IMG/VR virus record: IMGVR_UViG_3300008108_007099
Span: 27,492-91,491 of that record
Length of the DNA: 64,000 nucleotides
DNA from: a virus
Reading direction: 5' to 3' (one strand)
The position numbers and the translations under genes were made by a program. Below, piece after piece: positions 4,191 through 62,227 of this stretch. Each line of letters opens with the position of its first letter. Position 1 is the stretch's first letter. Below the pieces are notes generated by a model, which did no database searches, was not told the DNA's origin, and was given only the letters and a program-made list of their open reading frames with translations.

Positions 4191-4244
4191 TAACAATACT
4201 GAACTGATATATGAAGGTAACCAGATAGGAATATAGGGAAAACT

Positions 4245-8540: not shown

Positions 8541-8543
8541 AAA

Positions 8544-11500: not shown

Positions 11501-14500
11501 AAGTTTGACGGCAGCAAGCGGTCTTTCATCAGTTACTTACTATCCTTCTGGATCGGCTGTAATTGGAATAGCTTCTGGCGGAATCGTTGCACAGATGATG
11601 GGTAGCGGTTCTGTCACCACAAATGCAATTGCTAGCGGTTCTGTCACCACAAATGCATTAGCAAGCGGAGCAATTTCAGCAATCGTTGGAAGCGGAGCAA
11701 TTACTAGCGGCGATTTAGGAATCGCAACTGTGAATAACTTAAACATAGTAAGTGGAACCATAAGCAACGATAAACTTGTAAATAGCTCAATCACTATCAA
11801 TGGTGCATCAACAGCACTAGGTGGAAGTTATGCTAACGCTGCCTTGACACTGGGCACTGGTCTCACAGGTGGTTCATATAATGGTTCAGGTGCAGTCACT
11901 GCAGCTATCGCTTCGGGCGGTATTACAAACGAAATGATTGCAGACAATGCAATCACTACAAATGACATAGCTTCTGGTCAAGTAACTGGAGCCAAGATTG
12001 CTGCAACCACAGTGGCAAATGCTAATTTGGTCAATAGCGCAGTCACAATTGCAGGTTCTTCCACTGCACTAGGTGGTAGCTGGGCCGCAGCAGCTTTAAC
12101 TACCGCAAGCGGACTAGCAGCAGGAACTTATTATCCTTCAGGCGCTCTTACCATAGGAATTGCAACAGCTGGCGTAGTAAATGCGATGATTGCTAGTGGA
12201 GCGGTCACAGGCACAAGCATAGCCGCTTCAACTGTAGCAAATGCGAACTTAGTAAATAGTGCTGTAACAATTGCAGGTTCTTCAACATCCTTGGGTGGTT
12301 CTTGGGCTGCTCAAGCACTTACAACTGCCAGTGGTTTATTGGCAGGAACTTACTATCCATCTGGAGCACTCACTATTGGTTTAGCATCCGGTGGAATTAC
12401 AAGTCAATTAATTGCAGATGGGGCCGTTGGAACAAACGAGCTTGCCACAAGTGCAGTAACTAACGACAAAATTACAAGCGGAACTGTTGCTAATGACAAA
12501 CTTGCAAACAGCACAGTCACAATCGCTGGCTCGTCTACTGCCTTAGGTGGAAGCTGGGCTGCACAAAGTCTAACTGCCGCAAGCGGTTTATCTGCTGTAA
12601 CATATTATCCTTCCGGAGCGGCTGTTATAGGCATCGCTTCTGGTGGAATTATAGCACAAATGATGGGTAGTGGTTCTGTAACTGCTAATGCAATCGCTAG
12701 CGGTTCGGTTACTGCAAATGCACTAGCTAGCGGAGCAATATCAGCCATAGTTGGTAGTGGTGCAATTACCAGTGGAGATTTGGGAATTGGTGCAATTAAT
12801 AATCTAAACATATCCAGCGGAACAATTAGCAACGATAAGCTTGCAAATAGCTCTATTACAATTAACGGCGCTTCAACAGCGCTTGGTGGCAGCTATGCAA
12901 ATGCCGCTCTAACACTTGGAACTGGCTTAACTGGTGGTTCATACAATGGATCAGGTGCCGTAACTGCAGCTATAGCTTCCGGTGGCATAACAGGAGAAAT
13001 GATTGCTGACAACGCAATCACAACAAATGATATTGCGTCGGGACAGGTTACAGGAGCCAAGATTGCCGCAAGCACTGTGGCAAATGCAAATCTTGCAAAC
13101 AGCACAATTACAATCGCTGGATCTTCTACCGCCTTAGGCGCAAGCTGGGCAGCAGCAGCCCTAACAACTTCTAGCGGCTTGACTGCTGGTACTTACTATC
13201 CTTCAGGCGCTCTTACCATAGGGATTGCATCTGGCGGCATCGTTGCCCAAATGATGGGAAGTGGATCAGTTCTATCGGGTGCAATTGGCTCAGGGCAAAT
13301 TGGGCCAAATCATTTATCTTCCGGAATTAGCGTTACCACTGCCACAAAAATAAGTATAGAGGGAACAAACGCCAGCGGTCTATATCCTGTAGTATTTACA
13401 AGTGGCATCGCTAGTAGCAACCAAGCCTATTCATGCTCTGGACTATTTTACAATCCGGCACTCAGAAGCCTTGATATAGTTTGTTATTTGAGCGGCGGTA
13501 CAACCGGTGGCGTTTCAATATTCCCCGGCAACAATGGTACAGCAACGATTGTGGGTCAAAATGCAGCCAGAAACGGTGCCAGTACTGGTGCATTCAGCAC
13601 TATTATTGGCAGGGATGCACTTGCAAGCGGATCATCGGAGGCCAACAGCGTTATTATAGGATATAGGGCAGCATGGGGATCACAAGGTACCGGCGATAAC
13701 GTTATAATCGGCAAAGAGGCCGCAGCAAACGCTGTGGGAACTAGTTTAAGCGTTCTTATAGGTGATTCTGTTGCAAGTAGAGGATTTGGGAATGGTACTT
13801 TTGGTAACGTTGCTATCGGTGCCGCAGCTGGTACGACTGCTGATGGCGTATTAATGTATGAAAGTGTGCATGTTGGAAGGCAAGCCGGCTCAGCTGGCCC
13901 TGCATTAGCCAGCGGCACAAGTGGTGGTAGTAATATTTACTTAGGCGCATATACCATGCGTGGTAGCGACGGTGGTCGTTGGAACGAAATAGTAATTGGC
14001 TGCAATATGAGTGGCCTTGGTACTAACACCATCACTATGGGACGAACTGATACTGCTTCCGGTAGAATTTATGGAAATATCAACTTCCCATATGGAATTT
14101 CGTTCCCATCCGGCGGTATCACATCAGGTGGTGTTTTCACAGCTTCCCTAGGATCTGGATTGGTCCGAAGTGGAGCTATAAGCTCTGGTCAGATAGGAAT
14201 AAATCATCTCGCTGCAGGCGCATGGTCTGCCAACCAAGTCTTAGGTCAAGATGGCGCAGGCAATCTAGACTGGATTACACCAACTACAACAGTGAATAGT
14301 GGTGGAATTACTAGCGGCATGCTAGGAATTGCTTCAGTAAACAATATCAACATTGTTTCTGGAACCATAAGCAACGATAAACTTGCCAACAGTGCCGTCA
14401 CAATCGCTGGTTCTTCAACATCCTTGGGTGGTTCTTGGGCCGCACAAGCTCTGATACATGCCAGTGGTCTATCTGCCGTCACTTATTATCCTTCTGGACA

Positions 14501-25371: not shown

Positions 25372-28300
25372 ATGTCTAGCAAGCAGAAAATGATAGAAAT
25401 TTATGAAAGTTTTGCTACCAAATTGAGCAGCAAGGTAGTGAACGAAGCCGTAGAAAATTCAGCTCCAAAAATACCTCAATTGTTGAATGATATTGATATA
25501 GATTTCGTAAATCAGTTTGACCGCAAATATTGGGCTCAGGCAATTAAAAAGCGCTACGACATGTTTTTCCATTACTTGGTGAACTTAGATAAGTTGAGAA
25601 AAAAGGTTGCAGAACATTATTTTCCTCAAAAGCTAACTGACGCGAAATCAATATTTGATGCGCCGAAATTTGCTAATCTAGTACCATTCGTTAAAAAACG
25701 AGAAATCAAAAACCAAGCAGAGGCTGCTGCCAAGGCGGAAGCTACGAGAATGTTTCCTGCTGGCGCGGAAATAAACCCCACAGTTTTAAAACACCCTATT
25801 TTTAAAGATATTTCTGCTGATGAGCGGAGCGAATTGAGACAAATTATCGATAAGATAAACAAACATTATATTGCAGATACAGATAAAGAATTCAATAATT
25901 TCGTAGTTGGATCAGAAAATAAACCTAGAGACATTCAAGCAAAAGCATTTTTGAAAGATTTGGGTAGGAGTCTTGAGGGTAGCTATGGCAAACCAGATGG
26001 ATATGATTTAAACAATCCGCGACGTATGGCCATGAGCAAGGATGGTGAAAGCAAAGAATCTAGGTTTGTTACTGATGGATTTATATTCCCAACAAAAAAA
26101 GAAATAGAAGATGCAATACGCACAAAATTGAAACACATTAGTAGAGGGATAAGTATTCCAGTCGATGATGCTGACAATAAAAGGTTAGAGGGTCATGCCT
26201 TAAGAAAAGACAGAGTAACTAGCGATGAAGGAACATCGCCGCTGGAAAAACAACTGGTGCAGATGTACAAATTGCAAGCCAGACAAGAATTTGAGGCAAA
26301 AAAACAGGCAGATTCGCGTTTTAGATTTAAAGAGAGCGACATTGATAAGCGTGCTGCTAATTTAGCACGGCAAAAAATGAAGAGCTTTTCCGATGCAAAG
26401 GAGCTTGAAAATTACTTGATGACAGAAAAGGGAATTAGTCAGAAGGATTTGAAGGGATTGCAAAATCCTTTTCCAAACACAAAAATTGAAGAAATTGGCG
26501 ACAAATTTAAAAACTTTATTATTCAGAGGAATAGGGCAGTTGAAATTCCACACAAAGAGATGGACGTGGTTGACATAACAGACGGAGTCAAAAATGTAAG
26601 AAAAGTTCATAATCCAATTTTGAACAAAACCATAATGTTTCGTGATGTGAAACTAGAGCATCCTTTCGAAAGAAAAGAAGATAATTTAACACTTGATACA
26701 ACTAAAACAAATTTGTCAGGCAGAGGTCTAGGAGAAAAAACATTTGACCCAATTTTATTTGACAGATTGTTAGAAAGATGGAAGGCGCTGAAAAATCCTA
26801 AGGTGCCGAAATCTGCGAAAGCGGGTATAGAAAATATACTCCAGTCACACGGATTAACAAAAGAAAGTTCCGTCAATCAGATTATTGACGCAGCAAAAAG
26901 ATTTTATTATCAAGAAGCAGAACCAAGCTCATATGTACAAGGCAGTGATGTTTCGTCTACCTACAGTCATCATCCTTTAAGAATGTCTGCAGAATCGAAG
27001 TTTTTCAATAGGCATCATAATCCTAGTGAATATGATAAAGTTACAGAGATTTTATTTGATAAAGGTTCAAAATATAGACCTTCTGGCAAAACCTATGATA
27101 CGCTGACACTAATTGATAAGGCAATAAAAAGGTTTTTAAGGATTAAGAAAAATGATAAGCTAGGCGAGAAATTGCCAAAGATGATAATGCAAAGATCTTT
27201 TGGTGCTTTGAAAGCTTTGGCACAGGATCGCGTAATAAGTCAGCTTGCCGATCCAAGATTAATCATGGATGCAAATCTTGGCGTAACTGGCGCTCCGCCA
27301 AACTATTTCGGAAATGCAAATCTTATAAGAGAATTAGTCCATAAAGAAATGCTTAGGTATTTCAGGCAAAACCTTTTTACTGGCAGTATTCGTGGTAGGG
27401 GCGATTTTGTTGACATTTTGGATGCAGATGCAGAAGATTTAGCTTGCCGACAAGGTAAACGTTCTTACAGCACTGGAGACTGTTCGCTTAACATGGACAT
27501 TAAGAGTCTTCAGGCAATGCAGAATTCTGGGTACGCAAAATCAACAAGTTCTGTAAAAGAATTAAAAGCTGACGAGATGTCAGATGATATAGTTTCTCAA
27601 AGACGACAAATTCACAAAGCTATGGAAGGCGTTTATGAAATGATGAAAAGTCTTTATGTGGTTTTAAAAACAAAAGCTGCATTAGATAAGCACGGTCCAG
27701 CCATGCTAAAGGCAGAGCGTACTATCAAGCAAATGGAAGAGAAGTTCGCTGCAAATCCAAAGTTTAAAGATGTTAAAGACGTTTCTGCATTCAACGCAGC
27801 AAAAAAAGAAATTCAAAAATATAACAATGAAGCAAGAGACGAAGCAATATATCAAATTACACAATTCTTTGAAAACAATATGTCCAAAGATAGCGAACAG
27901 TTCCTTGAAGCTTTGCATAAAGATTATGTTACAAATTTAAACGACATACGTAAAAATCCAGCATTTTTGGCCAGAGTATCTATACCGCCTGAGTTAAAGG
28001 GCCCTGAAGATGCCGGTGCTATGGCAGTTGCTGATTTGAAAACATTTCAAGATAGGTTTAAGGCGCGTAGAAAGGATTCTGCCGCTGCTGCAACAATTGA
28101 TTCTAGATTTAGACAAGCAATTGAATCTTCGGATATGTCTCAGCTTGTAAAAACATTTTCTACGGCTGCCTTTGAAGAACCATCGCAGGCAGCAATATTG
28201 CACGATAAATTAACAAAAAGACTGCCTGAAACAGAAGCCAATTTTTTCAAAAAAATGACCGATAAAGAACTTCAAGAAATTACCAAAAAGTTAGATGCTA

Positions 28301-28749
28301 CAAATACGTTGCAGAATATTACCCATAATTTTTGGAATAGATTCCACTTTACAACTCCAGAGTTTGTGGAAGCTGATCCTAATACTTTGGTAGATTATTT
28401 TTCCAAAAATTTGAAATGGCTAAATGATAAGAATCTAATATTAATAGTTCAAAATATGCTAGATGAATTTGACAGAACTCATGAGCACCCAGAAGAAAAA
28501 AGCAGATTCGATTCTGAGCAATTTAATCATCCCGGTTACATCAAGTGGAAAGAACATGTTAAAAAAGCAAGAAGGCAAAAACGAGATGCGTTAAATATGG
28601 GAATACAAGAGCTCGAGAAACGCCGAAAATACAATCAATTTGTGGCAAGAATTACGCATCCAGAGAGACTTGAAAAGATGCTAAGTTTTGCTAGAGAAGC
28701 AGAACAACCAGAGCGCAAGAAAGCTGGAAGACCAAAGAAAAACGTATAA
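25372..28749 (+). CDS. Unknown 1125-residue charged helical protein
   Basis: A large protein I do not recognise. It is rich in Lys, Glu, Asp and Arg, predicted mostly helical, with no obvious enzymatic motif. It shows long stretches typical of extended or coiled helical scaffolds, and the C-terminus has ERKKAGRPKKNV, an AT-hook-like G-R-P core flanked by basic residues, hinting at DNA contact. Segment SSKVVNEAVE near residue 20 could be a gp21-type cleavage site, but this is weak. The start follows GAGGTAACAAA. The size and the surrounding structural genes suggest a virion or head-internal protein. Confidence 0.7.
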   Translation: MSSKQKMIEIYESFATKLSSKVVNEAVENSAPKIPQLLNDIDIDFVNQFDRKYWAQAIKKRYDMFFHYLVNLDKLRKKVAEHYFPQKLTDAKSIFDAPKFANLVPFVKKREIKNQAEAAAKAEATRMFPAGAEINPTVLKHPIFKDISADERSELRQIIDKINKHYIADTDKEFNNFVVGSENKPRDIQAKAFLKDLGRSLEGSYGKPDGYDLNNPRRMAMSKDGESKESRFVTDGFIFPTKKEIEDAIRTKLKHISRGISIPVDDADNKRLEGHALRKDRVTSDEGTSPLEKQLVQMYKLQARQEFEAKKQADSRFRFKESDIDKRAANLARQKMKSFSDAKELENYLMTEKGISQKDLKGLQNPFPNTKIEEIGDKFKNFIIQRNRAVEIPHKEMDVVDITDGVKNVRKVHNPILNKTIMFRDVKLEHPFERKEDNLTLDTTKTNLSGRGLGEKTFDPILFDRLLERWKALKNPKVPKSAKAGIENILQSHGLTKESSVNQIIDAAKRFYYQEAEPSSYVQGSDVSSTYSHHPLRMSAESKFFNRHHNPSEYDKVTEILFDKGSKYRPSGKTYDTLTLIDKAIKRFLRIKKNDKLGEKLPKMIMQRSFGALKALAQDRVISQLADPRLIMDANLGVTGAPPNYFGNANLIRELVHKEMLRYFRQNLFTGSIRGRGDFVDILDADAEDLACRQGKRSYSTGDCSLNMDIKSLQAMQNSGYAKSTSSVKELKADEMSDDIVSQRRQIHKAMEGVYEMMKSLYVVLKTKAALDKHGPAMLKAERTIKQMEEKFAANPKFKDVKDVSAFNAAKKEIQKYNNEARDEAIYQITQFFENNMSKDSEQFLEALHKDYVTNLNDIRKNPAFLARVSIPPELKGPEDAGAMAVADLKTFQDRFKARRKDSAAAATIDSRFRQAIESSDMSQLVKTFSTAAFEEPSQAAILHDKLTKRLPETEANFFKKMTDKELQEITKKLDATNTLQNITHNFWNRFHFTTPEFVEADPNTLVDYFSKNLKWLNDKNLILIVQNMLDEFDRTHEHPEEKSRFDSEQFNHPGYIKWKEHVKKARRQKRDALNMGIQELEKRRKYNQFVARITHPERLEKMLSFAREAEQPERKKAGRPKKNV

Positions 28750-28755: not shown

Positions 28756-29022
28756 ATGCAAAATGTTCTTCAGGACCCCGGATATGCAAATTTTTTAAAA
28801 ACTCACGGTTTAATTGCGCACATTTCTAAGCTTGATATACCGGATGTAAATGAATTTTTGCCAGTAATTTACAAAGTATGTTCTACCATATCTTCCACTG
28901 ATGAATTAGAAAACTTTGCTAAATTCCTCAATAAGATTTACGAAAGCGGATATTACAAATCAGCTGAAGACCATAAAAAGGCGCTGGCAGCTATGGGTCT
29001 TAATACCAGTCTTATAGTTTAA
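28756..29022 (+). CDS. Unknown 88-residue protein
   Basis: A small, mostly helical protein (FLKTHGLIAHISKLDIPDV, then VNEFLPVIYKVCSTISSTDE) of no recognised family. It follows the 1125-residue gene by 6 bases and lacks a ribosome binding site, with TATAAT ending 5 nt before the ATG. Its 3' end overlaps the converging gene by 11 bases. Co-directional with the large protein, so it may serve as an accessory or chaperone, but this is only positional inference. Confidence 0.65.
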   Translation: MQNVLQDPGYANFLKTHGLIAHISKLDIPDVNEFLPVIYKVCSTISSTDELENFAKFLNKIYESGYYKSAEDHKKALAAMGLNTSLIV

Positions 29023-29692
29023 AACTTGGCTGTATGTCAGTTGGGCCGCATACTATAAAGCATCCTTCAGGAGCGCTCCTTACACTATTAATTTTCCACC
29101 ATCTTCTGGTATCGTTTTTAGGATAAAGAATTGAATTCTTAGTCAAAAAATCTAGGTGCGACCAGAAAATTAACTCCATGTCATCTTCTTTTATGATAAA
29201 ATTTTCAAAAACAAAGTTTCTTGTGTATTTAATTTTTACAGTTTTGTCGGAATAAAGAGGATCGACAACTTCTTTTGTTTCAGCCAACATGCAATACATG
29301 ATATCTTTTTTATAATTTCTTAATTTCTCGTTTACTGTCTGTGGTCTTAAAACTTCTTCGTCGGTTTCAGGTTGAGGAGACTGTGTTGGTTCTGGTTTTG
29401 TAAAATCTGGTATTTCAAATTCCTGAATTTTTACTTCCTCTTTTATTTTAGCCTCCTTAGGAGGAGGGGGAGGAGTAGGCATTTCAGGCTTTTGTTGTTC
29501 TGCCGTTACAGTAGTTGTTGTTCCAAAATCTAGTTTTTTATTGGGTTTTTGCGGATTTTGTTTATTATTCACGATGTCAGGAGAGAAGTCCATGTTGTGG
29601 ACTTCGAAATTATCCCAAACTTCTTGAGACATCATTATTGGGTTGGGTCCGCGAACCTTATATACAGATCCATCTTTATTTTTAATTACCAT
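29012..29692 (-). CDS. Unknown protein with Pro-rich linker, 226 aa
   Basis: Three parts are visible: a small N-terminal domain (MVIKNKDGSVYKVRGPNPIM), a proline/lysine/glutamate-rich disordered linker (~residues 50-115, with PTPPPPPKEAK), and a C-terminal domain of about 105 residues with KIKYTRNFVFENFIIKEDD and RRWWKINSVR. No family is recognised; it is probably a virion or baseplate accessory protein. The ATG at 29692 is preferred over a longer reading to 29728, because the latter overlaps the divergent gene start and neither has a ribosome binding site. A TATAAT box lies 4 nt before this ATG. Confidence 0.65.
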   Translation of the reverse strand: MVIKNKDGSVYKVRGPNPIMMSQEVWDNFEVHNMDFSPDIVNNKQNPQKPNKKLDFGTTTTVTAEQQKPEMPTPPPPPKEAKIKEEVKIQEFEIPDFTKPEPTQSPQPETDEEVLRPQTVNEKLRNYKKDIMYCMLAETKEVVDPLYSDKTVKIKYTRNFVFENFIIKEDDMELIFWSHLDFLTKNSILYPKNDTRRWWKINSVRSAPEGCFIVCGPTDIQPSFKL

Positions 29693-29696
29693 GTTA

Positions 29697-29702
29697 ATTA
29701 TA
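29697..29702 (-). promoter_or_regulatory. TATAAT box 4 nt before ATG (leaderless type)
   Basis: On the minus strand TATATATAAT is followed by TAAC and ATG. The same alternating AT tract lies about 20 nt before the divergent plus-strand gene at 29730, so it may serve both directions. Confidence 0.4.
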
Positions 29703-29729
29703 TATATAGTAAAGAGATCTGGAGGCATA

Positions 29730-30179
29730 ATGGCTTTAGTTGTTCCAAATATTGGGGAAACCGCGCTACTTAAGAAAATGTTTAATCAAGAGCAGACAAC
29801 AACTCTGCTTCTTAAGCTGTATTACAATGACGCTACACCAAACGCTTTTTCCACCTTATCTTCATTTAGTGAATGTGGGTTTTCTGGGGATCCTCCAACA
29901 CCAAATGGGTCTTTTCCCGGTTATACAAACGCAACCATAACCAACAGCAATTGGGTAGTTGCTACTCCAGTTGGTGCTACCTATGCCGAAGCCGGATATG
30001 GAGAACAAACTTTCACTTTTAACGCATATACTTCCGCTCAAACAGTTTTTGGATACTATGTGACAGACACTCTCAACAATCTGTTGTGGGCAGAAAGATT
30101 TACAAACGCACCATTTACTTTGCCGCCCGCTGGCGGAACTATAGCAGTCACCCTAACTATTAATTTGGAAAATGTATAA
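29730..30179 (+). CDS. Unknown structural-type protein, 149 aa
   Basis: A 149-residue protein starting MALVVPNIGETALLKKM, with a strong CTGGAGG ribosome binding site that fixes the start at 29730 rather than at an upstream in-frame ATG. The composition is Thr/Ala/Phe/Tyr-rich with beta-strand character (YGEQTFTFNAYTSAQTVFGY, then IAVTLTINLENV at the end). Proteins opening with a similar segment occur among phage head or tail decoration proteins, but no firm family can be named. Its end overlaps the next gene by 8 bases. Confidence 0.65.
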   Translation: MALVVPNIGETALLKKMFNQEQTTTLLLKLYYNDATPNAFSTLSSFSECGFSGDPPTPNGSFPGYTNATITNSNWVVATPVGATYAEAGYGEQTFTFNAYTSAQTVFGYYVTDTLNNLLWAERFTNAPFTLPPAGGTIAVTLTINLENV

Positions 30180-31626
30180 GATTATCGTTAATATATGTTT
30201 TAAAGAATGGCTGTTAGTTGAAGATGAAAAATCTCAGCTAGCAGAGTTTAGTGTATTGAAAAACGATTACATAAATCCTTTCATAGACAGGCTCATACAG
30301 CATGGAGATACACATCCCGGATTTTTGACTCCATCACAAAAAACCGAACTTATGCATCTTAAGACATCTGACGACTTGTTTCACATGATGTCTTCGGCAG
30401 ATCGGGGTTATTTTGACAAAGCTGGTGCATTGACAGATAGCGATAAAATTAAAAAACTCATCAACCGCGAAATCGGCAAACTGAATTTTGATGCTGCTGG
30501 TAACTTGGGAGATTTAATACATCAAGTCAATACTGCTAAAACCTCAAAAAGTCTTCCAGAATACGATCCAGAAAGCGATGCAACTCCTTACAGAAGACAT
30601 ACTGTTGACGACATAAAACAATTTTTAGATCACATTTTTAGTAGAAAAGTTATTTACACTACCAAGCGCGCCGAAAAAGATTTCGGGGGAACTGGCGGAG
30701 CAAAGGGTGCAACGGAAGATACGCCGGGCATCGAGGGATTAGCAAAGGTACAAGCAAAGGATCCAGAAGAGATTCGTGAACTTGGTGCAAACTTAGAGGC
30801 AAGGCGAAAGATAGACAAACTTTCAGATTGTGTCAGACTTATATTTACAAAACAGAATGAAAAATATGCTAGGAAAGCGAAAAACTATGCAAAGCAAGTT
30901 GAAAACTCAATAGCTGACCCAGAGGAAAAATTGTCTGTTTCGCAATTAGTAGATTTGAAATTAGCCAGTTTATTTCAAATTGTTTCAAGATACATGAATG
31001 AGCGCGTAACTTCTATAGACGAAAGAGGATTCCCAACTTCTAGTGATTTATTTGTACAAAAAGATATAGACAATGTTTTACAGGGCAGAGTTAAATTGCT
31101 CGATAGAATAGTCAAGAGTGAAAATTTTATTCCATATTTACGTAAACTCATCAAGGATAACGACCCTGTAGCGGTTGATTTAGAGAAGGCCGTGCTTGGA
31201 ATTCTATTTGTGGCGGCTGCCAAAAAAGCTTCGTCAACCTCCGGAAGTATCGCACAAGTTATGCCAGCCTTTATGGGATTGGAAGCAGTAAAATCAAACG
31301 CTGCAAATCAAAAATTCCTCCAGAATCTTAAAGAGAAATTCTTAGATGACAAAGTATTAACTGACAAATTTAATTTCAAAAAATTAGATGCTTTAAATGC
31401 AGTTTCAGAAGGAAAAGACGGAGCACTAGATTCTTACATGATTTCTCATACTTTTCCAGACATAAATAAGGGAACTGAAGAAGCAGCTACTTTCTTGAAT
31501 TTTATGGAAAAAATGAAAAACACGAAAGAGCCTTTAATAGGAGCAAGGGGCGAAAGACTGACGTTAGATCTTGAAAAAGATTGTGAAGATGTTGCGCAGA
31601 TTTTGCAAAAGGCTGGTGTTATATGA
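30172..31626 (+). CDS. Unknown 484-aa protein with capsid-targeting-like N-terminus
   Basis: The N-terminus MYKIIVNICFKEWLLVEDE contains an F-K-E-W-L core like the aromatic tags seen on other proteins of this window and on T4 internal head proteins. The remainder is a helical, charged protein with no recognised family, similar in style to the 1125-residue protein upstream. The start overlaps the previous gene by 8 bases and its stop overlaps the next start as ATGA, so it is part of a tight operon. A candidate internal or head-associated protein, inferred from the tag only. Confidence 0.65.
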   Translation: MYKIIVNICFKEWLLVEDEKSQLAEFSVLKNDYINPFIDRLIQHGDTHPGFLTPSQKTELMHLKTSDDLFHMMSSADRGYFDKAGALTDSDKIKKLINREIGKLNFDAAGNLGDLIHQVNTAKTSKSLPEYDPESDATPYRRHTVDDIKQFLDHIFSRKVIYTTKRAEKDFGGTGGAKGATEDTPGIEGLAKVQAKDPEEIRELGANLEARRKIDKLSDCVRLIFTKQNEKYARKAKNYAKQVENSIADPEEKLSVSQLVDLKLASLFQIVSRYMNERVTSIDERGFPTSSDLFVQKDIDNVLQGRVKLLDRIVKSENFIPYLRKLIKDNDPVAVDLEKAVLGILFVAAAKKASSTSGSIAQVMPAFMGLEAVKSNAANQKFLQNLKEKFLDDKVLTDKFNFKKLDALNAVSEGKDGALDSYMISHTFPDINKGTEEAATFLNFMEKMKNTKEPLIGARGERLTLDLEKDCEDVAQILQKAGVI

Positions 31627-32205: not shown

Positions 32206-32895
32206 ATGAAAAGTTTTTTTGAATTTTACGACAAACTTAAGTCTAAGAGGCTTAATGAGCAGGACGCCATGGTGCCACCAAATATGGGCATGGGACAAGC
32301 ACCTCCCGGTGGTCAAATGCCTAGTGCAGGAGGCATGGATAGCATGGGTGCTCCCGGTCAAGTTGCCGGGCAACAAGGAATGAACCTTGACGCACCGCAA
32401 GATATGGGTGGTATGGATCAGCTTGATGCTGACCAAGATGAGGGCAAGGAAGATTCTGACAGCCAAACCGCGCCACCAGAAGGAGAGGCCACAGCAGAAT
32501 CTTTGTACCCCACGATTGACACTCTTATTAAATTCGTCAAGGATTACAGCGTTGGCGATGATGATGACAAAGATCAAAAGCGCGAAGAGCTTTTGTCGCA
32601 ACTTGATGCGATTAAAAACAATATCGCTGATTTAACAGGAGTCCAGCCTCCATCAGGTCCATCCGACGAAGAGAGTGATGACAGCGTTGGGGCTAATCAG
32701 ATTGACGCTTCAGCAGATGAAATTCCACCGGGAAAGCAAACTGCTTACGGTGGTGAATTCGGTGACCAAGCTGGAGGAGCAAGCATGCCAAATATGGACG
32801 GAACAGGAAACATGTACGGCAACATGGATGGAGGTTCTAACCCTGCCACTACCGGTGGCGGCGCACTTGGATTTGGCGGCGCATTCGCCGGATAA
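32206..32895 (+). CDS. Acidic Gly/Met-rich protein with capsid-targeting-like tag
   Basis: A 229-residue protein with the ribosome binding site AAAGGAG. The N-terminus MKSFFEFYDKLKSKRLNE resembles the T4 capsid-targeting sequence, with R-L-N-E as a possible gp21-type cleavage end followed by Gln. Beyond it are low-complexity segments rich in Met, Gly, Pro and Gln (PNMGMGQAPPGGQMP), then a central acidic helical region (DYSVGDDDDKDQKREELLSQL), then a second disordered Gly/Met-rich tail. This is typical of scaffold or internal head proteins. A strong terminator follows directly. Confidence 0.65.
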   Translation: MKSFFEFYDKLKSKRLNEQDAMVPPNMGMGQAPPGGQMPSAGGMDSMGAPGQVAGQQGMNLDAPQDMGGMDQLDADQDEGKEDSDSQTAPPEGEATAESLYPTIDTLIKFVKDYSVGDDDDKDQKREELLSQLDAIKNNIADLTGVQPPSGPSDEESDDSVGANQIDASADEIPPGKQTAYGGEFGDQAGGASMPNMDGTGNMYGNMDGGSNPATTGGGALGFGGAFAG

Positions 32896-39121: not shown

Positions 39122-39643
39122 CTAATGGTTTTTCTTTTTCTCTTTTTTTCTACCAGACATAACTGGATTACCATTCTTTATAGCAAATATTTTACTATAT
39201 TTCTTTTTAAGCTCGTTATAGTTCTTAGCTGTGCGCCATAGTTGCCTAAAGTGATTTAGTATGCAGGTTGTCATATAGTTAAAAGCTTTACCCTTACTTG
39301 GGTCAAATTTTTCTACTCTTTCAAAGCAGATAAGAACACCCTCTTGTATGGCGTCGTCCTCATCTATGTTACTAAACTTAGCATATCTTACTATATTTTT
39401 AGACAAAGTATAGAAAGCGTCTGCAAGTATTTTTTGTGCAGAAGTAAGGTCATCACTTGCTCGCACAATTTCTATATTGTCAAGGGCCAGAGGCACCATG
39501 ACACTATTTTTTACTTGAAAGATAGACCTTTGAAAATTAAGATCTTCTAAAAGAATTTGAAATTTATTTTGTTGTTTTTTGGCTGTTTGGAATCTTATAA
39601 TAATAGATTCAAAACTTTTATTATTTAAATATTCGGATGACAT
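39122..39643 (-). CDS. 55: Late-transcription sigma factor, T4 gp55-like
   Basis: A 173-residue sigma protein resembling T4 gp55, which replaces the host sigma factor for late genes and recognises a TATAAATA box. The core SNIDEDDAIQEGVLICFERV (~103-122) is the sigma region 2 signature, then KFDPSKGKAFNYMTTCILNH (~124-143) and FRQLWRTAKNYNELKKKY (~144-161) match the strongly conserved gp55 block. The C-terminus is very basic (SGRKKEKKKNH). Its presence matters for this window, because boxes close to TATAAATA precede several genes here. Confidence 0.9.
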   Translation of the reverse strand: MSSEYLNNKSFESIIIRFQTAKKQQNKFQILLEDLNFQRSIFQVKNSVMVPLALDNIEIVRASDDLTSAQKILADAFYTLSKNIVRYAKFSNIDEDDAIQEGVLICFERVEKFDPSKGKAFNYMTTCILNHFRQLWRTAKNYNELKKKYSKIFAIKNGNPVMSGRKKEKKKNH

Positions 39644-48004: not shown

Positions 48005-48541
48005 TTAGGATGCTGGTCTTGCTTGGTCTGTTGGGCCGCCCAGAGGCGGTATGGTGCTCAAATCGGTTGTTCCAGTTGTCATGGCAGTTTGATTATCAAA
48101 GTTGTTTCCTCCAACCTTGCTCATATCGTTTTGGTCCGATCCAAGCTCTTCGGAGCCCTTGTCCATAACTGCTAAATTATTGATTGGACCTTTAATCTTG
48201 TTTAGAATGTTTTGATTAATTAAGTCCAAGCAGCCCTTAATTATTGCTGCAATATCTTGGTTTTGTGTATCTTTGTCGCCATCAGCTAAAAGTTTCATGT
48301 TGTAAGCTACAGTTTGTAATGGAACTAAAAATACTTGTTGCTGTTTTAACCAGTGCCCATGAATCATAGTTTGAACTAAAGAGAAAATGTCTTCGCAGTC
48401 TCCTTTTAATTCTACTAAACCTGTAGATGCCAAGTTTAACATAGACTGCAATCGTTCTGCAACTTCCGAAGCAGCTTTCTTAAGTACACGATTATCCTCT
48501 AGTAGGACAAATCTTTTAAATGATATTGTTTCTTCGAACAT
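48005..48541 (-). CDS. Unknown 178-aa protein with tag-like N-terminus
   Basis: The N-terminus MFEETISFKRFVLLED has the F-K-R-F-V-L-L-E-D core like the capsid-targeting tags elsewhere in this window. The middle is helical (AERLQSMLNLASTGLVELKG, VYNMKLL), and the last ~50 residues are disordered (TTGTTDLSTIPPLGGPTDQA). No family is recognised. There is no ribosome binding site; GATAAATA ends 4 nt before the ATG. A candidate late, head-internal protein by analogy with the other tagged proteins. Confidence 0.65.
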   Translation of the reverse strand: MFEETISFKRFVLLEDNRVLKKAASEVAERLQSMLNLASTGLVELKGDCEDIFSLVQTMIHGHWLKQQQVFLVPLQTVAYNMKLLADGDKDTQNQDIAAIIKGCLDLINQNILNKIKGPINNLAVMDKGSEELGSDQNDMSKVGGNNFDNQTAMTTGTTDLSTIPPLGGPTDQARPAS

Positions 48542-54747: not shown

Positions 54748-55104
54748 TTAAGACTTTTTTTCTTGCTTTTTCAAGCATTTGTCCAGCGCGTTCCAAACAT
54801 CTGTATTTTTCAAATCAATATCAGTAGGTGCTGCTGGTGCTCCTCCCAATCCGCCTCCAAGACCAGACATGTCTGGTCCTCCTAAAGGTGGCGCTGCTCC
54901 TCCTCCTAATCCACCAGCTGGAGGTGTGGCTCCCAAACCGGGATCTCCTCCTATGCCCCCTGCAGGCAACGGTGGCGCTCCACCCATGCCTCCTCCAATA
55001 TCTCCTCCTGTCGGTGGAGCACTTCCAGCACCAGCTGCTCCTCCAACAGGTGCTGCGTCGGCTTCATTAAGCATATTTTTTACGAAATTTCTGAAGGTTA
55101 TCAT
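54748..55104 (-). CDS. Gly/Pro/Ala-rich protein with capsid-targeting-like tag, 118 aa
   Basis: The N-terminus MITFRNFVKNMLNEADAAP carries an F-R-N-F-V tag followed by M-L-N-E then Ala, a good match to the gp21-type prohead protease site (L/I-x-E before A/S/G). Residues ~20-90 are almost wholly Gly, Pro and Ala with GGG and PPL islands, and the last ~25 residues form a short acidic/basic helix (NTDVWNALDKCLKKQ). A candidate internal or DNA-associated head protein. No ribosome binding site; GATAAATA ends 5 nt before the ATG. Confidence 0.7.
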   Translation of the reverse strand: MITFRNFVKNMLNEADAAPVGGAAGAGSAPPTGGDIGGGMGGAPPLPAGGIGGDPGLGATPPAGGLGGGAAPPLGGPDMSGLGGGLGGAPAAPTDIDLKNTDVWNALDKCLKKQEKKS

Positions 55105-55109
55105 TACAT

Positions 55110-55117
55110 TATTTATC
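55110..55117 (-). promoter_or_regulatory. GATAAATA box 5 nt before ATG (leaderless type)
   Basis: On the minus strand GATAAATA is followed by ATGTA and ATG of the Gly/Pro-rich tagged protein. It lies back to back with the plus-strand box at 55125-55132. Confidence 0.55.
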
Positions 55118-55124
55118 CATGATT

Positions 55125-55132
55125 AATAAATA
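55125..55132 (+). promoter_or_regulatory. AATAAATA box 5 nt before ATG (leaderless type)
   Basis: AATAAATA is followed by ATTTT and the ATG at 55138; seven of eight bases match TATAAATA. The whole divergent intergenic gap is 33 bases and holds both boxes. Confidence 0.6.
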
Positions 55133-55137
55133 ATTTT

Positions 55138-55593
55138 ATGAAGAGCTTTAGAACATGGTTAGAAGATGTCGCGCCATCAGCGATGGATGACCCTACTGTT
55201 GCTGGTATTCCAGATGAAACTCCAGCTGCTAGTCCTGCCGACACAAAAATGACTACAAAACAATATCTTGAAAAATATAAACTTAAACCGTGGAAAGCTT
55301 CCAAAGAACAAATACTTTCTTTTTGGAAAACCGTTGCACCTAATTCTCCTTTAGCTTTAAAACCAATTGCTTATGATCATGAAGGTTCGTCAATTCAGGA
55401 AGATACTGTCAGAATTACTGGTAGCAAGGAATTCATTTCAAGTGTTTTAAGTCGTCTGAAAGACTTTCTTAATTACGAAAATGACAAAACTAAGGTCATG
55501 GTGGCTTACAGACAAAGCCCAAGAAGCTTTTTACCCGGCAATAAAAATTCTTATATTTTCTATTTGCAGGTCATGGAGAGAGGCAAAGATTGA
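55138..55593 (+). CDS. Unknown 151-aa protein with capsid-targeting-like tag
   Basis: The N-terminus MKSFRTWLEDVAPSAM has the aromatic tag F-R-T-W-L-E-D. A Pro/Ala/Thr-rich linker to about residue 38 is followed by a compact C-terminal domain (KYKLKPWKASKEQILSFWKT, then SVLSRLKDFLNYENDKTK and a beta end NSYIFYLQVMERG). No family is recognised. The start has no ribosome binding site and the AATAAATA box lies 5 nt before it, so it is among the best leaderless candidates. It overlaps the converging small gene by 34 bases. Confidence 0.65.
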   Translation: MKSFRTWLEDVAPSAMDDPTVAGIPDETPAASPADTKMTTKQYLEKYKLKPWKASKEQILSFWKTVAPNSPLALKPIAYDHEGSSIQEDTVRITGSKEFISSVLSRLKDFLNYENDKTKVMVAYRQSPRSFLPGNKNSYIFYLQVMERGKD

Positions 55594-55745
55594 TATACTT
55601 CGTGATATTCTGTTAATTCTTCTGTTCTTTTAATTTGATTGTCGATTTTATCCGCGAGGTCCTGTTGTTTTTGCGTCATGTTTATGAATTTGCTATCAAT
55701 TTTTTCCACAAGGGCTTTAATTACCGCAACGTCGTCTAGTATCAT
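55560..55745 (-). CDS. Small coiled-coil protein, 61 aa
   Basis: A 61-residue helical protein (VAVIKALVEKIDSKFINMTQ, then KQQDLADKIDNQIKRTEELT) with heptad-like spacing, predicted to form a short coiled coil. GGAGG lies upstream but with a long spacing of 12 bases to the ATG. Its 3' part overlaps the end of the converging tagged gene. It may be real because of the ribosome binding site and heptads, but short overlapping ORFs like this can also be spurious. Confidence 0.4.
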   Translation of the reverse strand: MILDDVAVIKALVEKIDSKFINMTQKQQDLADKIDNQIKRTEELTEYHEVYQSLPLSMTCK

Positions 55746-55868
55746 AATGGGACGGACCTCCGTTTTATGGACATAGTATTAATGCTGAAGAATGACTTTT
55801 ACAAGTACATTTGTGTGGAAAAATTTCTGCGGAAACCCTAAAATTAAATTATAGACAGAGGTGCAAAG

Positions 55869-57281
55869 ATGGCAAAAATTTTACTTAAAAACGACATAAG
55901 CCAAATCACAACAAAGAATGAACCTTTGTCTAAATTTCTTTACGAGAATCTCAGATTCCGCGATAGAAATTATTTCCACAATAGAGCTTACAGGCAAAGA
56001 ATTTGGGACGGTTACACGAATTTCTTTAATAAAAATAACGGTAAATTCCTAACTGGATTGCTCCCAGAAATTTTGATGGCTTGCAAAGCCATGAATGAGC
56101 CAGTTGAATTTATTGACCAAAGAACAAATGTTGAATTTTCTGTAAAAGAAATAACCTCATCCTTTTTGCATTCCTGTACACCAAAAGGTTCTACACCAAT
56201 AACTTTGGAAGACTATCAGGTAGACTTGGTAAATACCGCAATCAAGAATAAAAGAGGTGTTATATTTGCGCCAACCAGCGCTGGCAAGTCGTTGACAATG
56301 CTATCCATACTTAAATGCCTACCGTCTGGCACTAAAACTCTTGTATTACAAAACAGAAAAACTCTAGCAATTCAAAACTACGAAGAATATACTAAATGGG
56401 GCCTCCATAATGTAGGACGCATTTGGGGTGGGGTTGATGAGCCCAGTGATATTACTGTGTCTACTGTTCAGTCTATTTCAAAAGCGGAAGATCTTTTGCC
56501 GCAAGTGGAAGTACTTTTAGTTGATGAAATACATGATATGATGAGCGCGGCTCCCAAAGCTGTTTACAGAATGCTAAAAAAATGCAGTGTTAGAATTGCA
56601 GTTTCTGCTACTCCTTTCAAATTTGGAGAAAGCGACAAAATACAAAAATTTTATGTTAAAGGATTCTTCGGCCCTCCCTTCAAAATTAAATCAACAGAAA
56701 CAGGAGTTGTTACAACCAAAGAATTACAAGAGCGCGGAAGACTATCCAAAAGCAAATGTAAATTCTTCAAAATAACATCTCCAGATTTAGAATATGAGCT
56801 TTACCAAGACGCTGTAAATTTGGGCATTGTCGAAAATGCCGAACTTCACGAGAAGGTTGTTAATTTAGCAAACTCACAGTTAGGCAGAACTTTAATTTTG
56901 GTCGATAGATTAGCCCATGGCGATACATTGCAGTCTCTAATACCCAACGCTCTATGGGTTCAGGGTAAGGATAATGATGAAACAAGAAAGCAAGTTATAG
57001 AACAATTGCAAAAATCTGAGAATTGTATAGCCATTGCTACACAAGGTATTTTCAATACTGGAATTAACGTATTTGTGCATACTTTGATTAATGCTGCCGG
57101 TGGGCAAGCAGACCATCAAATAATACAGAGAATGGGTCGCGGTCTTAGAACAGCCAAAGATAAAGAAGAATTACTTTACATTGATTTTATATTTGAAACA
57201 AACCCTTACCTACACAGACATAGCCTAAAACGGGTCAAAATTTTGCAAAAACAGGGACACGATGTAGAAATTCTGGACTAA
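55869..57281 (+). CDS. uvsW: SF2 DNA helicase, UvsW-like
   Basis: A 470-residue superfamily 2 helicase. Walker A APTSAGKS is at residues 134-141, motif Ia near KTLVLQNRKTL, motif II LLVDEIHDMM at ~214-223, motif III IAVSATPFKF, and motif VI QRMGRGLRTA near 420. The N-terminal ~110 residues form the accessory domain seen in T4 UvsW, which unwinds branched DNA and moves replication from early origins to recombination. Ribosome binding site AGAGGTG. The gene starts in a 123-base gap that includes a 24-codon ORF of no clear value. Confidence 0.85.
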   Translation: MAKILLKNDISQITTKNEPLSKFLYENLRFRDRNYFHNRAYRQRIWDGYTNFFNKNNGKFLTGLLPEILMACKAMNEPVEFIDQRTNVEFSVKEITSSFLHSCTPKGSTPITLEDYQVDLVNTAIKNKRGVIFAPTSAGKSLTMLSILKCLPSGTKTLVLQNRKTLAIQNYEEYTKWGLHNVGRIWGGVDEPSDITVSTVQSISKAEDLLPQVEVLLVDEIHDMMSAAPKAVYRMLKKCSVRIAVSATPFKFGESDKIQKFYVKGFFGPPFKIKSTETGVVTTKELQERGRLSKSKCKFFKITSPDLEYELYQDAVNLGIVENAELHEKVVNLANSQLGRTLILVDRLAHGDTLQSLIPNALWVQGKDNDETRKQVIEQLQKSENCIAIATQGIFNTGINVFVHTLINAAGGQADHQIIQRMGRGLRTAKDKEELLYIDFIFETNPYLHRHSLKRVKILQKQGHDVEILD

Positions 57282-57622
57282 GTTCCGGCTGTCATGATGT
57301 CAACGATATCACCTATGGTGCCATCTATTTCATCAACATTATCTAATTGTTTTCTTTTTGGATCGTCAGGCGGTAATTGTTTATAGAATTGAAGATTTTT
57401 AATTGTGTTTTTTACTCCCATTTGAGTGGAAGTTCCTTTGGGACCCGGCACTTCTTGCGTTTTAAGGTTTCGCAAAGGCTGTTTTCTCAGCTCTCCATTA
57501 CTTCCAATTCCGCCTAAATCAAATGCGCTTCTTAAAATGTCAAGATAATTAGTTTCTTGGTTCTGAATTGTTTCATTCAAAACTGTTAAATACCATGACT
57601 TAAATTCTAGCTTTATTTCCAT
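57278..57622 (-). CDS. Unknown 114-aa protein with capsid-targeting-like tag
   Basis: The N-terminus MEIKLEFKSWYLTVLNETI carries the aromatic tag F-K-S-W-Y, followed by V-L-N-E as a possible cleavage end. The rest is short and charged, partly disordered (RKQPLRNLKTQEVPGPKGTS), ending in a small acidic stretch (IDGTIGDIVDIMTAGT). No family is recognised. The exact TATAAATA box ends 5 nt before the ATG and there is no ribosome binding site, the clearest leaderless candidate in the window. It converges with UvsW, overlapping by 4 bases. Confidence 0.65.
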   Translation of the reverse strand: MEIKLEFKSWYLTVLNETIQNQETNYLDILRSAFDLGGIGSNGELRKQPLRNLKTQEVPGPKGTSTQMGVKNTIKNLQFYKQLPPDDPKRKQLDNVDEIDGTIGDIVDIMTAGT

Positions 57623-57627
57623 AGATA

Positions 57628-57635
57628 TATTTATA
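57628..57635 (-). promoter_or_regulatory. Exact TATAAATA box 5 nt before ATG (leaderless type)
   Basis: On the minus strand TATAAATA is followed by TATCT and ATG. It matches the T4 late consensus in all eight positions, with spacing that puts the start of transcription at or next to the start codon. Confidence 0.65.
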
Positions 57636-57655
57636 GAGGCTTAAGGTATTTTTTG

Positions 57656-58471
57656 ATGCAGCATAAATTATTATTTAAAGAGTGGATTGGCAAGAGTCCT
57701 GAAGTTATGTACGGATTTAGGCCAGACGTAAGCAAAATTGAGATTCCATTCTATGAATTGGAGCCAATAGAAGCCTTTAGTGTTGAGAAATGTTTAGAAG
57801 CTTTGGCCGCGACTGGTAAAATAGACGGAAAAGAAGCAAATGACATTTGGAAAACTCAGCTTTCATACGGACATGGATTGGGAAAAGTTAGTGTTACAAG
57901 TTCTCCTTATGGATCCTATAAATTTGTAGTAAGAAGATATGTAACTGATGCTAAAGGTAATTTGGTGCCAATATGCAGGCTTGTAATACCACTAACAAAT
58001 GATTACAACCATCGCGGTCCTAATGACCCCGGCGAAGAAATATTAGCCGTCAAAATGTACGATAAAATTAAACAAATAATGTCAGAACCTTATCCTGCTC
58101 CTAATTGTGACTTTCAAAAAAGATTCGCGCACTTTGTTTACAACTTTAGTAAAGCCGTTAAATTAAAACATCCAAACATCATGGTTTACCAAGGCACTGT
58201 TAAGTTAGACGACAATAATTACATCATCAGTTTTACCTTTAAAGGATATGGTAACGGCGTGCCTAACTCACAAAAAGCAGAAGAGTTTTTGATTAATTGG
58301 CAGTATCTGCCTGAGACTGGATTATTGAGATGCTGGGGTTATGACGTAGTTTCTCCTGTAAAACAACGAGAATGGCAACCTGCTGTAAGTGAATGGGATG
58401 AGTATTTTTGTCCAACTCAGCCAGAAAATCAGATTATGAGTTGTATCATGGAAGCTTTTATGACCTATTGA
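57656..58471 (+). CDS. Unknown 271-aa protein with capsid-targeting-like tag
   Basis: The ATG at 57656 (with TTAAGG 10-11 nt upstream) is preferred over an adjacent TTG. The N-terminus MQHKLLFKEWIGKSPE has the F-K-E-W-I tag. The remainder is a globular, partly beta-rich protein with YKFVVRRYVTDAKGNLVPIC, then VYQGTVKLDDNNYIISFTFK and a C-terminal WDEYFCPTQPENQIMSCIME. No family is recognised. A head-internal role is inferred from the tag only. It converges with the next gene, overlapping by 14 bases. Confidence 0.65.
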   Translation: MQHKLLFKEWIGKSPEVMYGFRPDVSKIEIPFYELEPIEAFSVEKCLEALAATGKIDGKEANDIWKTQLSYGHGLGKVSVTSSPYGSYKFVVRRYVTDAKGNLVPICRLVIPLTNDYNHRGPNDPGEEILAVKMYDKIKQIMSEPYPAPNCDFQKRFAHFVYNFSKAVKLKHPNIMVYQGTVKLDDNNYIISFTFKGYGNGVPNSQKAEEFLINWQYLPETGLLRCWGYDVVSPVKQREWQPAVSEWDEYFCPTQPENQIMSCIMEAFMTY

Positions 58472-59147: not shown

Positions 59148-59173
59148 CACAAAATTCTACATCTAAATCAAAT

Positions 59174-59200
59174 TTGCCACAACTGCAAAACAACTAAAAT
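59174..59200 (+). promoter_or_regulatory. Predicted sigma-70-like promoter for the structured RNA
   Basis: TTGCCA (59174-59179) and TAAAAT (59195-59200) are separated by 15 bp. Transcription would start near 59207, just before the first stem of the structured region. The spacer is shorter than ideal, so this is a moderate prediction. Confidence 0.35.
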
Positions 59201-59206
59201 TGGTCA

Positions 59207-59619
59207 TGGATTAGTAAGGTGAATTAACGACCTGAAAGTCCATCGAGTCTCTTTCATAAGACAATGTTAATTCATTGTTGAAATTTAGAGATGGAAAAAC
59301 CAGTTGGGTCGATTACTCATTACCTTCAAAAGAGATTTGAGTAAAAGATAACCCCTGTGGTATGTAACGAGTACCATGGACCAACTACGGCAAAGAGGTG
59401 AGCCATACCTCCTACCCCAGCTGATGCGGGTTACCTGTCAGAGAAATCTGAATAGGTTGAAAAAGGGGTGAAATCCAACAAGAGTGAGTACTAACAGACT
59501 CAGGGTGGTTGGATTGGACAGTATGGTTAGTAGTTGCAAAACAGTTAAGTCAGTATCTCTTTAAGGTTACCAACTCCTTAGTTTTAAAGAAGATAAGTAA
59601 ACTTCTTACTTTTCTTTTT
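59207..59619 (+). ncRNA. Large structured noncoding RNA, class not recognised
   Basis: The stretch has no plausible reading frame but many perfect stems. GAATTAAC (59221-59228) pairs with GTTAATTC (59266-59273), AGTTGG (59302-59307) with CCAACT (59381-59386), TTACTCA (59313-59319) with TGAGTAA (59338-59344), TGGTA (59358-59362) with TACCA (59372-59376) and GAGGT (59395-59399) with ACCTC (59407-59411). TCAGA-GAAA-TCTGA (59438-59451) is a hairpin with a GNRA tetraloop. AATCCAAC (59472-59479) pairs with GTTGGATT (59508-59515), enclosing TGAGT/ACTCA. TAAGG (59215-59219) and CCTTA (59576-59580) could close the fold. The GNRA loop fixes the plus strand. It is not a tRNA, tmRNA or RNase P RNA by eye; GOLLD/ROOL-type ornate phage RNAs are the nearest idea. 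Confidence 0.65.
59587..59619 (+). terminator. Probable terminator ending the structured RNA
   Basis: AAGAAG (59587-59592) pairs with CTTCTT (59602-59607), followed by a T-rich run to 59619. The stem is weak (6 bp, two G-C pairs), so efficiency is uncertain. Confidence 0.5.
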
Positions 59620-59735
59620 AACTATGAGTTACAGGAACCCGTGGAGGTCGGTTTTGAATAGCGATTAAAATTCTTTAATTATTTGATATTTGTAACTTTT
59701 ATGGTATTATCCTAGAATGTAAATTAGGAGAAGGC

Positions 59736-61609: not shown

Positions 61610-62074
61610 ATGAACAGAGGCCCGTACGTAGAGATTAGATTGACACCACCAATGATTGAATTGGCTCACACTTTGGCCAAAGAACTAGGTGTTTTAAGAA
61701 ATTCAATCGAGGAAGGTGCTGGTAACATTACTGGATTCTGTGCCGAATTAGCATGCAAAAAGCACTTCGGCATACCTCTAGATGAAATTCAGAACACTTA
61801 TCACTATGACATTTTGGTTAACGGTATTACGTATGATGTGAAAGCTAAAAAAAGAAAAGATGCTCCAAGATACTGGCACGAAGCTAGCATCTCTGATTAC
61901 AACACAAGTCAAAAGTGTAATTTGGGTTTTTATCCGAAACAACAATATTTGGACGAAGCAAGATTCCTTAAAAAAGGACAAATCGATGGCTCAAATAATT
62001 TTGAAGTTAAAGGGGATTGCTGGAATTTGGTCTACGAAAAATTAAATCCAATCAGCCAAATTAAAAGAAATTAG
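61610..62074 (+). CDS. PD-(D/E)XK-like protein, 154 aa
   Basis: A 154-residue protein with GFCAELACKKHFGIPLDEIQ, then YDILVNGITYDVKAKKRKD, matching the E...D...x-V-K catalytic layout of the PD-(D/E)XK nuclease fold. A closely related protein is encoded 1.1 kb downstream (63214-63738), also ending in the segment DCWNLVYE / DCFNLEYQ, so the two are paralogues. Ribosome binding site GGAG. The gene is followed at once by two tRNA genes on the other strand, a common setting for mobile or host-takeover genes. Confidence 0.6.
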   Translation: MNRGPYVEIRLTPPMIELAHTLAKELGVLRNSIEEGAGNITGFCAELACKKHFGIPLDEIQNTYHYDILVNGITYDVKAKKRKDAPRYWHEASISDYNTSQKCNLGFYPKQQYLDEARFLKKGQIDGSNNFEVKGDCWNLVYEKLNPISQIKRN

Positions 62075-62148
62075 TGCAAAGTCGTGGAGTTGAACCAACG
62101 TGTGCCGGCTTATAAGGCCGGTCCTCAAAGCCGTCGAGGACACTTTGC
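62075..62148 (-). tRNA. tRNA-Ile(UAU), slightly irregular
   Basis: On the minus strand the acceptor GCAAAGT pairs with ACTTTGC. The D stem CCTC pairs with GAGG, the anticodon stem CCGGC with GCCGG, and the loop CTTATAA gives anticodon TAT, which reads the isoleucine codon AUA. The T arm needs a bulged base (CGTTGG with CCACG), and position 8 is not T in this alignment. CCA is not encoded. It directly follows the stop of the preceding gene and its own folding is good but not perfect. Confidence 0.6.
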
Positions 62149-62152
62149 AGAT

Positions 62153-62227
62153 TGGGCTCTCTGGGACTTGAACCCAGAACCGAACGATTATGAGTCGTTT
62201 GCTCTAGACCAGTTGAGCTAAGAGCCC
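62153..62227 (-). tRNA. tRNA with anticodon CAT (Met or Ile2)
   Basis: On the minus strand a clean 75-nt cloverleaf: acceptor GGGCTCT/AGAGCCC, D arm GCTC...GAGC, anticodon stem AACGA/TCGTT with loop CTCATAA, T arm CTGGG-TTCAAGT-CCCAG. The discriminator is A and CCA is not encoded. CAT could be elongator methionine or, if Cys34 were lysidine-modified, isoleucine AUA; the neighbouring UAU tRNA already reads AUA, so Met is somewhat favoured. Likely co-transcribed with the other tRNA. Confidence 0.9.

Follow-up and report, generated by a model that had tools for sequence, protein, structure and literature searches.

The stretch of DNA analyzed in this work (the window) comprises 64,000 bases, namely bases 27,492-91,491 of the 91,491-base IMG/VR virus record IMGVR_UViG_3300008108_007099, a contig that represents a fragment of a phage genome. 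Several unrelated proteins encoded in it begin with the same aromatic-rich tag, which occupies about ten residues at the extreme N-terminus and recurs in a clade of huge phages. On the strength of sequence comparison, we consider it probable that this tag is a capsid-targeting sequence of the T4 type in large-scale use, and that the proteins carrying it would be packed into the head, cleaved and delivered with the DNA. This proposal is based on the enrichment of the tag in five genomes and its conservation within families (27/29, 36/38 and 41/47 members), on its match to the T4 targeting positions and to the N-termini of the T4 internal proteins II and III (IPII and IPIII), on the enrichment of L/I-x-E motifs, the LNE-A of the major capsid proteins (MCPs) and the presence of gp21-family protease genes, and on late-type promoter boxes together with the glutamate preceding the catalytic cysteine in 7/7 members of a hydrolase family.

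Tagged genes in the window and in related huge phages

The phage to which the window belongs is T4-like and has a contractile tail, as seen from its sheath stabiliser (PF16724, E=4.5e-19), sheath, tube and head-tail adaptor. A search of phage DNA at near-identity with the window gave no match; its sheath stabiliser and UvsW-type helicase match LR756511.1, an unannotated uncultured phage of 595,163 bases, at 48% and 52% identity, the other records listed being far lower for these two proteins. The gene order of the window is kept in LR756511, reversed. The first-pass annotation had attributed a shared tag to six or seven window proteins, and all seven N-termini are present in the sequence as written; none of these candidates matched Pfam or PHROGs at E<=0.01. 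The observation is confirmed, on a much wider scale than first described, though the support differs between the genes: five of the seven have tagged counterparts in LR756511.

These five genes form two divergent pairs and a single gene. In the first pair, a Gly/Pro-rich protein of 118 amino acids (aa) encoded at 54748..55104 on the minus strand starts with MITFRNFVKNMLNE followed by A and has tagged counterparts in LR756511 (MRSFRQYITEVLLNE) and in a second huge phage, G004, while the 151-aa protein at 55138..55593 on the plus strand starts with MKSFRTWLED (MLSFREW in LR756511); in five aligned homologs of the latter, M1, F4 and W7 are invariant and the linker after the tag is highly variable in length. 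In the second pair, the 114-aa protein at 57278..57622 (minus) begins with MEIKLEFKSWYLTVLNE followed by T and corresponds to an LR756511 protein starting MKNFRVWLEE; in relatives too, members of the 57656 family have a tagged neighbour of this kind transcribed divergently from them. Its partner, a 271-aa protein at 57656..58471 (plus) with no recognised fold, carries MQHKLLFKEWI (MKSFASW in LR756511) and starts at an ATG inside an open reading frame (ORF) whose listed start is a TTG at 57653. A structure model of this protein reached a mean confidence (pLDDT) of 83, with a low-confidence N-terminus; Foldseek found no PDB match at E<=0.001, and the best viral matches had E values of about 2e-4 and TM-scores of 0.2-0.3. 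The fifth gene, at 48005..48541 (minus), encodes a 178-aa protein with the tag MFEETISFKRFVLLED, which had been described as a weaker case; a syntenic LR756511 gene (MEFKKFLITE, 21% identity), itself with tagged homologs in G004 and G007, bears it out. Homology underlies the correspondence for 55138 and 57656, and composition together with the C-terminus underlies it for 54748; for 48005 and 57278 (30%) it is mainly a matter of synteny, with weak similarity.

The remaining two candidates fared less well. The 229-aa Gly/Pro-rich protein at 32206..32895 (plus; MKSFFEFYDKLKSKRLNE followed by Q) has a look-alike in G007 only, and its gene shows a Shine-Dalgarno-like element in place of a late box. 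The 484-aa protein at 30172..31626 (plus) is a putative member: its F-K-E-W lies at residues 10-13, with F at residue 10, its gene has neither a box nor another possible start codon ahead of the motif, and the sole relative found is a near-identical contig. A further candidate that had escaped the first-pass annotation, a 1125-aa protein at 25372..28749 (plus), has a tag-like IYESFATKLSSKVVNEA near its start and is syntenic with the tagged LR756511 gene 469121, to which it gave no blastp match at 1e-4.

We compared ORF starts with internal methionines as background, using a strict pattern, M-x(1-4)-F-x-x-[WFY]-hydrophobic, and, for the 91.5-kb contig, a loose one, M-x1-9-F-x-x-[WFY]-hydrophobic; a greedy longest-ORF script, rather than a trained gene finder, supplied the ORFs. 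In the 91.5-kb contig the loose form matched 8/61 ORF starts vs 5/356 internal methionines, and the strict form 4/61 vs 3/360 (p=0.0017), one of the four strict matches (29012-29728) looking like chance. In LR756511, 45/922 ORFs of at least 70 aa were tagged vs 22/2235 internal methionines (0.98%; p=7.5e-18), considering the first start only, or 65 if any methionine within the first 50 residues is allowed. Since the strict pattern was defined on the window and LR756511, only four huge phages found via the MCP represent independent tests, and in all of them the pattern, fixed beforehand, was enriched: G004 (23/507 vs 6/1451, p=8e-17), G005 (23/586 vs 9/1354, p=3e-11), G007 (13/718 vs 10/2193, p=4e-5) and G008 (12/317 vs 7/1028, p=3e-6). 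In 80 loci around the MCP gene, which are related and not independent, 66/1172 starts were tagged vs 9/4785 internal methionines, and a family encoded near the portal and protease genes had the tag in 41/47 members. The MCP of LR756511 has 370 IMG/VR relatives at the search threshold, the best 80 of which (L137-L216) share 78-92% identity and lie on contigs of up to 533 kb; they constitute a large, little-described clade of huge phages.

Two families were traced through IMG/VR with a looser pattern ([FY], x1-7), any in-frame methionine near the start being accepted and near-identical rows being dropped (37 loci to 29 for the 57656 family, 80 to 60 for PolyA_pol); several of these loci belong to phages already counted. 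The tag was found in 27/29 distinct members of the 57656 family, whose aromatic pair is retained at 21-38% identity, and 18/29 have a divergent neighbour matching the pattern within 120 nucleotides (nt), one of which, a 317-aa ORF, may be a chance match. Among PolyA_pol/CCA-type nucleotidyltransferases, 36/38 distinct full-length homologs were tagged, with [LIF]-x-E after the tag in 31/36; the 4/22 tagged distant homologs set an upper limit to the background of the loose rule.

Likeness to capsid targeting, processing and late transcription in T4

In T4, according to the part of PMC9026906 devoted to this system, the first ten residues of IPIII are sufficient for targeting, mutations assign targeting mainly to residues 4 and 7 and processing to residues 8 and 10, and gp21 cuts after L/I-x-E. 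The comparison with IPIII made in the first-pass annotation remains the best fit. By definition of the pattern, the tags in their commonest spacing have aromatic residues at positions 4 and 7 and a hydrophobic one at position 8, as in IPIII. Glutamate is enriched at the second, fifth and eighth residues after the F (0.31, 0.30 and 0.22 vs 0.06), and the third is W in 43, F in 42 and Y in 23 of 108 tags. IPII and IPIII themselves have Y in place of F and hence fall outside the pattern.

The evidence for a gp21-type site downstream of the tag is mixed. An L/I-x-E within residues 8-27 is enriched among tagged proteins in 5/5 genomes (each p<0.05; summed, 45/116 tagged vs 522/2934 untagged), and the MCP N-termini listed from the 80 loci contain FLNEA in 25/25 cases and LLEG in most; their LNE is the same as that following three window tags. 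LR756511 encodes both a gp21-type protease (PF03420, E=7e-28) and a gp23 MCP (PF07068, E=5e-87), and a gp21-family protease is present in 6/6 other huge phages, themselves found via the MCP.

A family of N-terminal nucleophile (Ntn) hydrolases bears on cleavage. These proteins resemble PF03417 (AAT), under the curated Pfam cut-off (E=6.6e-5 and 0.0018), and in 7/7 distinct members (15 loci) a glutamate directly precedes the conserved catalytic Cys, within [L/I]-x-E in six and L-F-N-E in one; the sequence before this motif is unrelated in length and content, and 2/7 are tagged. As Ntn hydrolases require a free N-terminal nucleophile, a cut by the prohead protease before the Cys would activate the enzyme; alternatively, autoproteolysis at the E-Cys bond might take the place of that cut.

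The association between tag and late promoter is also observed. Among the 59 window coding sequences, a box containing ATAAATA occurs in the 60 nt upstream of only four, those at 48005, 54748, 55138 and 57278, in keeping with the link drawn in the first-pass annotation. In the intergenic region 55105..55137, each of the two starts has an ATAAATA box 5 nt before it, and boxes are present in two relatives (L004 and L005) as well; in 57623..57655, an exact TATAAATA ends 5 nt before the ATG of 57278, and 48005 is preceded by two ATAAATA boxes. A gp55-like late sigma factor encoded at 39122..39643 on the minus strand (phrog_234, E=1.9e-8) is the likely reader of these boxes. In LR756511, a T4-consensus box with at most one mismatch lies in the last 30 nt before 15/45 tagged vs 42/877 untagged genes (p=1e-8), and the same association was found in G004 (1e-4) and G005 (0.003). 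Late-type boxes are common to tagged, MCP and sheath stabiliser genes, and the commonest spacing between the end of the box and the ATG is 4-5 nt. As the definition of an abutting box was chosen after inspection of the data, its p values are descriptive only; a Shine-Dalgarno-like element precedes 2/34 tagged genes with an abutting box vs 864/2157 untagged genes overall. Since the T4 late box lies at -13 to -6, a box ending 4-5 nt from the ATG would place the mRNA start at the ATG, which suggests that the tagged genes may be expressed from leaderless late mRNAs.

The following sequence of events might then be envisaged, in which docking, cleavage, packaging and injection are what we infer. Cargo genes would be transcribed late from gp55-type promoters, with 4-5 nt separating the box from the start codon and the mRNA probably beginning at or beside the ATG. 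A stretch of roughly ten residues at the start of the protein (M-x-x-F-x-[EQ]-[WFY]-[LFV]-E) would dock it in the prohead core. The gp21-family protease would then cut after an L/I-x-E-like site and release the cargo, which would stay beside the DNA inside the head and enter the host together with it. The likeness to T4 IPI, IPII, IPIII and Alt concerns the N-terminal tag, with its aromatic residues 4 and 7 and hydrophobic residue 8, and the L/I-x-E downstream of it in many proteins, as well as the gp21-family protease, the gp23-type MCP and gp55-type late transcription. The clade differs from T4 in that tagged proteins number dozens per genome rather than a handful, in the preference for F and W where T4 tags have Y and F, in a glutamate often directly following the hydrophobic residue, in the presence of enzymes, such as CCA-type nucleotidyltransferases, among the cargo, and in boxes that abut the start codon.

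Alternative explanations and comparison with other phages

Some results weigh against capsid targeting. An L/I-x-E within 20 residues is missing from 71/116 (about 61%) of the tagged starts; neither gp21 nor gp23 was found in the window's own contig, a fragment; the T4-consensus box test (TATAAATA) was not significant in G007 and G008; and some of the pattern matches are certainly due to chance. Two matches in LR756511, a DNA-primase-like family (543819) and a CAP-domain ORF (212583), may likewise be chance and were set aside. Moreover, our search found no virion proteome of this clade, and in CBB, a Rak2-like jumbo phage that resembles the clade in having gp21, gp23 and an ATAAATA late motif, as described in the relevant sections of PMC5259590, the tag occurs on 0/54 virion ORFs and 5/360 others (in 297 of 378 kb). 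The virion list (Table 4 of that paper) has 55 proteins, one of which was not called as a whole ORF in one piece.

It is against this background that a different role of the tag has to be weighed, namely that it docks the proteins onto some other structure (the tail, the baseplate, the capsid surface, a membrane or a replication compartment) and that they lie outside the head interior. The lack of L/I-x-E in most tagged proteins speaks for it, as do a localisation in the head that is predicted from sequence and the different N-terminal motif common to CBB virion proteins. On the other hand, the match to the IPIII targeting positions, the L/I-x-E enrichment, the boxes shared with MCP and sheath stabiliser genes and the glutamate before the Cys in 7/7 Ntn hydrolases all argue against it, and we regard this explanation as rather improbable. 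Far less credible is the idea that the conserved first codons serve the translation of leaderless mRNAs, the peptide itself having no role. The boxes 4-5 nt from the start codon and the rarity of Shine-Dalgarno-like elements (2/34) would fit it, but the W, F and Y found three residues after the F require different codons, the amino-acid spacing is held across families at 20-50% identity, and some untagged genes have abutting boxes too. That the set reflects chance plus the reader's selection, as the small strict count in the window (4/61, one probably false) might suggest, is refuted for the clade by replication in four genomes with a fixed pattern and by conservation within families; the chance of it being so is minimal, although it could still apply to 30172.

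The absence of the tag from CBB virion ORFs implies that capsid targeting by this tag is not common to all T4-like jumbo phages. No enrichment was detected in T4, phiKZ (4/329), Mel-JY01 or LR756508, the last a weak null result given that LR756508.1 yields few ORFs for its size (691 greedy ORFs of at least 60 aa in 484 kb) and may use another genetic code, a recoded stop codon being possible. In XacN1 and RAS14 the enrichment was weak (p of about 0.01). The tag thus belongs to this clade and, in a Y-F form, to T4; XacN1 and RAS14 may have it as well. These two phages share three look-alike pairs (XacN1 53927, 190362 and 238329; RAS14 281509, 138721 and 92390) whose T4-like tags end in L/I-x-E (MRFVQYLIEAS, MSFKTFLIEG and MTQSFKQFLIEA), which are likely internal head proteins of Rak2-related phages. 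The XacN1 chitinase (ORF272) is reported to occur in virions in the paper on that phage; an upstream extension of its gene begins with MKNNPFIKWFEYPD, but the annotated start lies 24 codons later, and we did not use it as evidence. Nine varied CBB (KU574722) virion proteins confirmed by mass spectrometry (CBB_144, 247, 536, 537, 548, 549, 551, 552 and 553) share a different, MLPFxRxxEYGN-like N-terminal motif, perhaps another address label. In phiKZ and SPN3US, as reported in PMC5694885 and PMC9026906, a protease like gp21 processes many head proteins after x-x-E, and these are in part ejected, which resembles the process proposed here, whereas most of their propeptides exceed 100 residues and phiKZ has no tag enrichment.

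Other features of the window include three huge repetitive proteins (1394, 1431 and 2292 aa) rich in ASG-x-I-type repeats at 6-15422, which are probably fibres and have further counterparts upstream in the contig; minus-strand genes for two tRNAs, Ile (tat) and Met (cat), at 62074-62227; and 585 structured-looking bases at 59151-59735 without a convincing ORF and without an Rfam match at the gathering score.

Predicted cargo and its possible meaning

A Pfam scan of part of the tagged proteins (30 singly and 79 as a batch) gave matches to a SAK-type HAD phosphatase, a fungal-tRNA-ligase-type phosphodiesterase, an AAA_33 kinase, a C39 peptidase and NUDIX; in the batch of 79, cREC_REC, SAM lyase, UvrD helicase and others were matched once each, and the majority of the proteins had no Pfam match. 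HAD_SAK_1, found in six genomes, of which G008 gave an ambiguous reading, is tagged in LR756511, G004 and G005 and, via an internal methionine, in G007, while the ORF read in G006 has no tag. The CCA-type nucleotidyltransferase has an intact active-site region (GGAVRDH and DYDL); G004 and G006 each have a second, shorter PolyA_pol gene, which lacks the tag. The RNA ligases of the same genomes are untagged as well (0/6, ten loci having yielded six that could be read).

Jumbo phages are well known for RNA repair, and the repertoire described in the RNA-repair section of PMC7824862 shares with the tagged set the CCA-adding enzyme, SAK-HAD phosphatase, 2H phosphoesterase, cRec and kinase; that section is silent on packaging and on any targeting tag, and the main text has 0 occurrences of "capsid-targeting". 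Our search of the literature, in which subscription journals were mostly outside the scope, found no description of such packaging tags for T4-like phages of huge or jumbo size. The novelty lies in the packaging label that part of a known RNA-repair set carries.

We can speculate, with less than even confidence, that dozens of enzymes form an in-capsid toolkit assembled through a portable cassette of promoter, leaderless start and tag, with tRNA repair preceding translation and an Ntn hydrolase switched on by maturation. If this idea were correct, the CCA-type nucleotidyltransferase, SAK-HAD phosphatase, tRNA-ligase-type phosphodiesterase, cRec and kinase would be delivered with the genome, host defences that cut tRNA would already be countered when translation of the first phage mRNA begins, and a cut between L/I-x-E and C would create the N-terminal catalytic Cys of the hydrolase.

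Read as capsid targeting, the tag would represent a known device used on an exceptional scale, giving a testable list of cargo. A label of ten residues, readable from sequence, would tell which of the hundreds of uncharacterised proteins of a huge phage travel in the capsid, and the question of what these phages inject would become a ranked, testable list that points to RNA repair at entry as a counter-defence.

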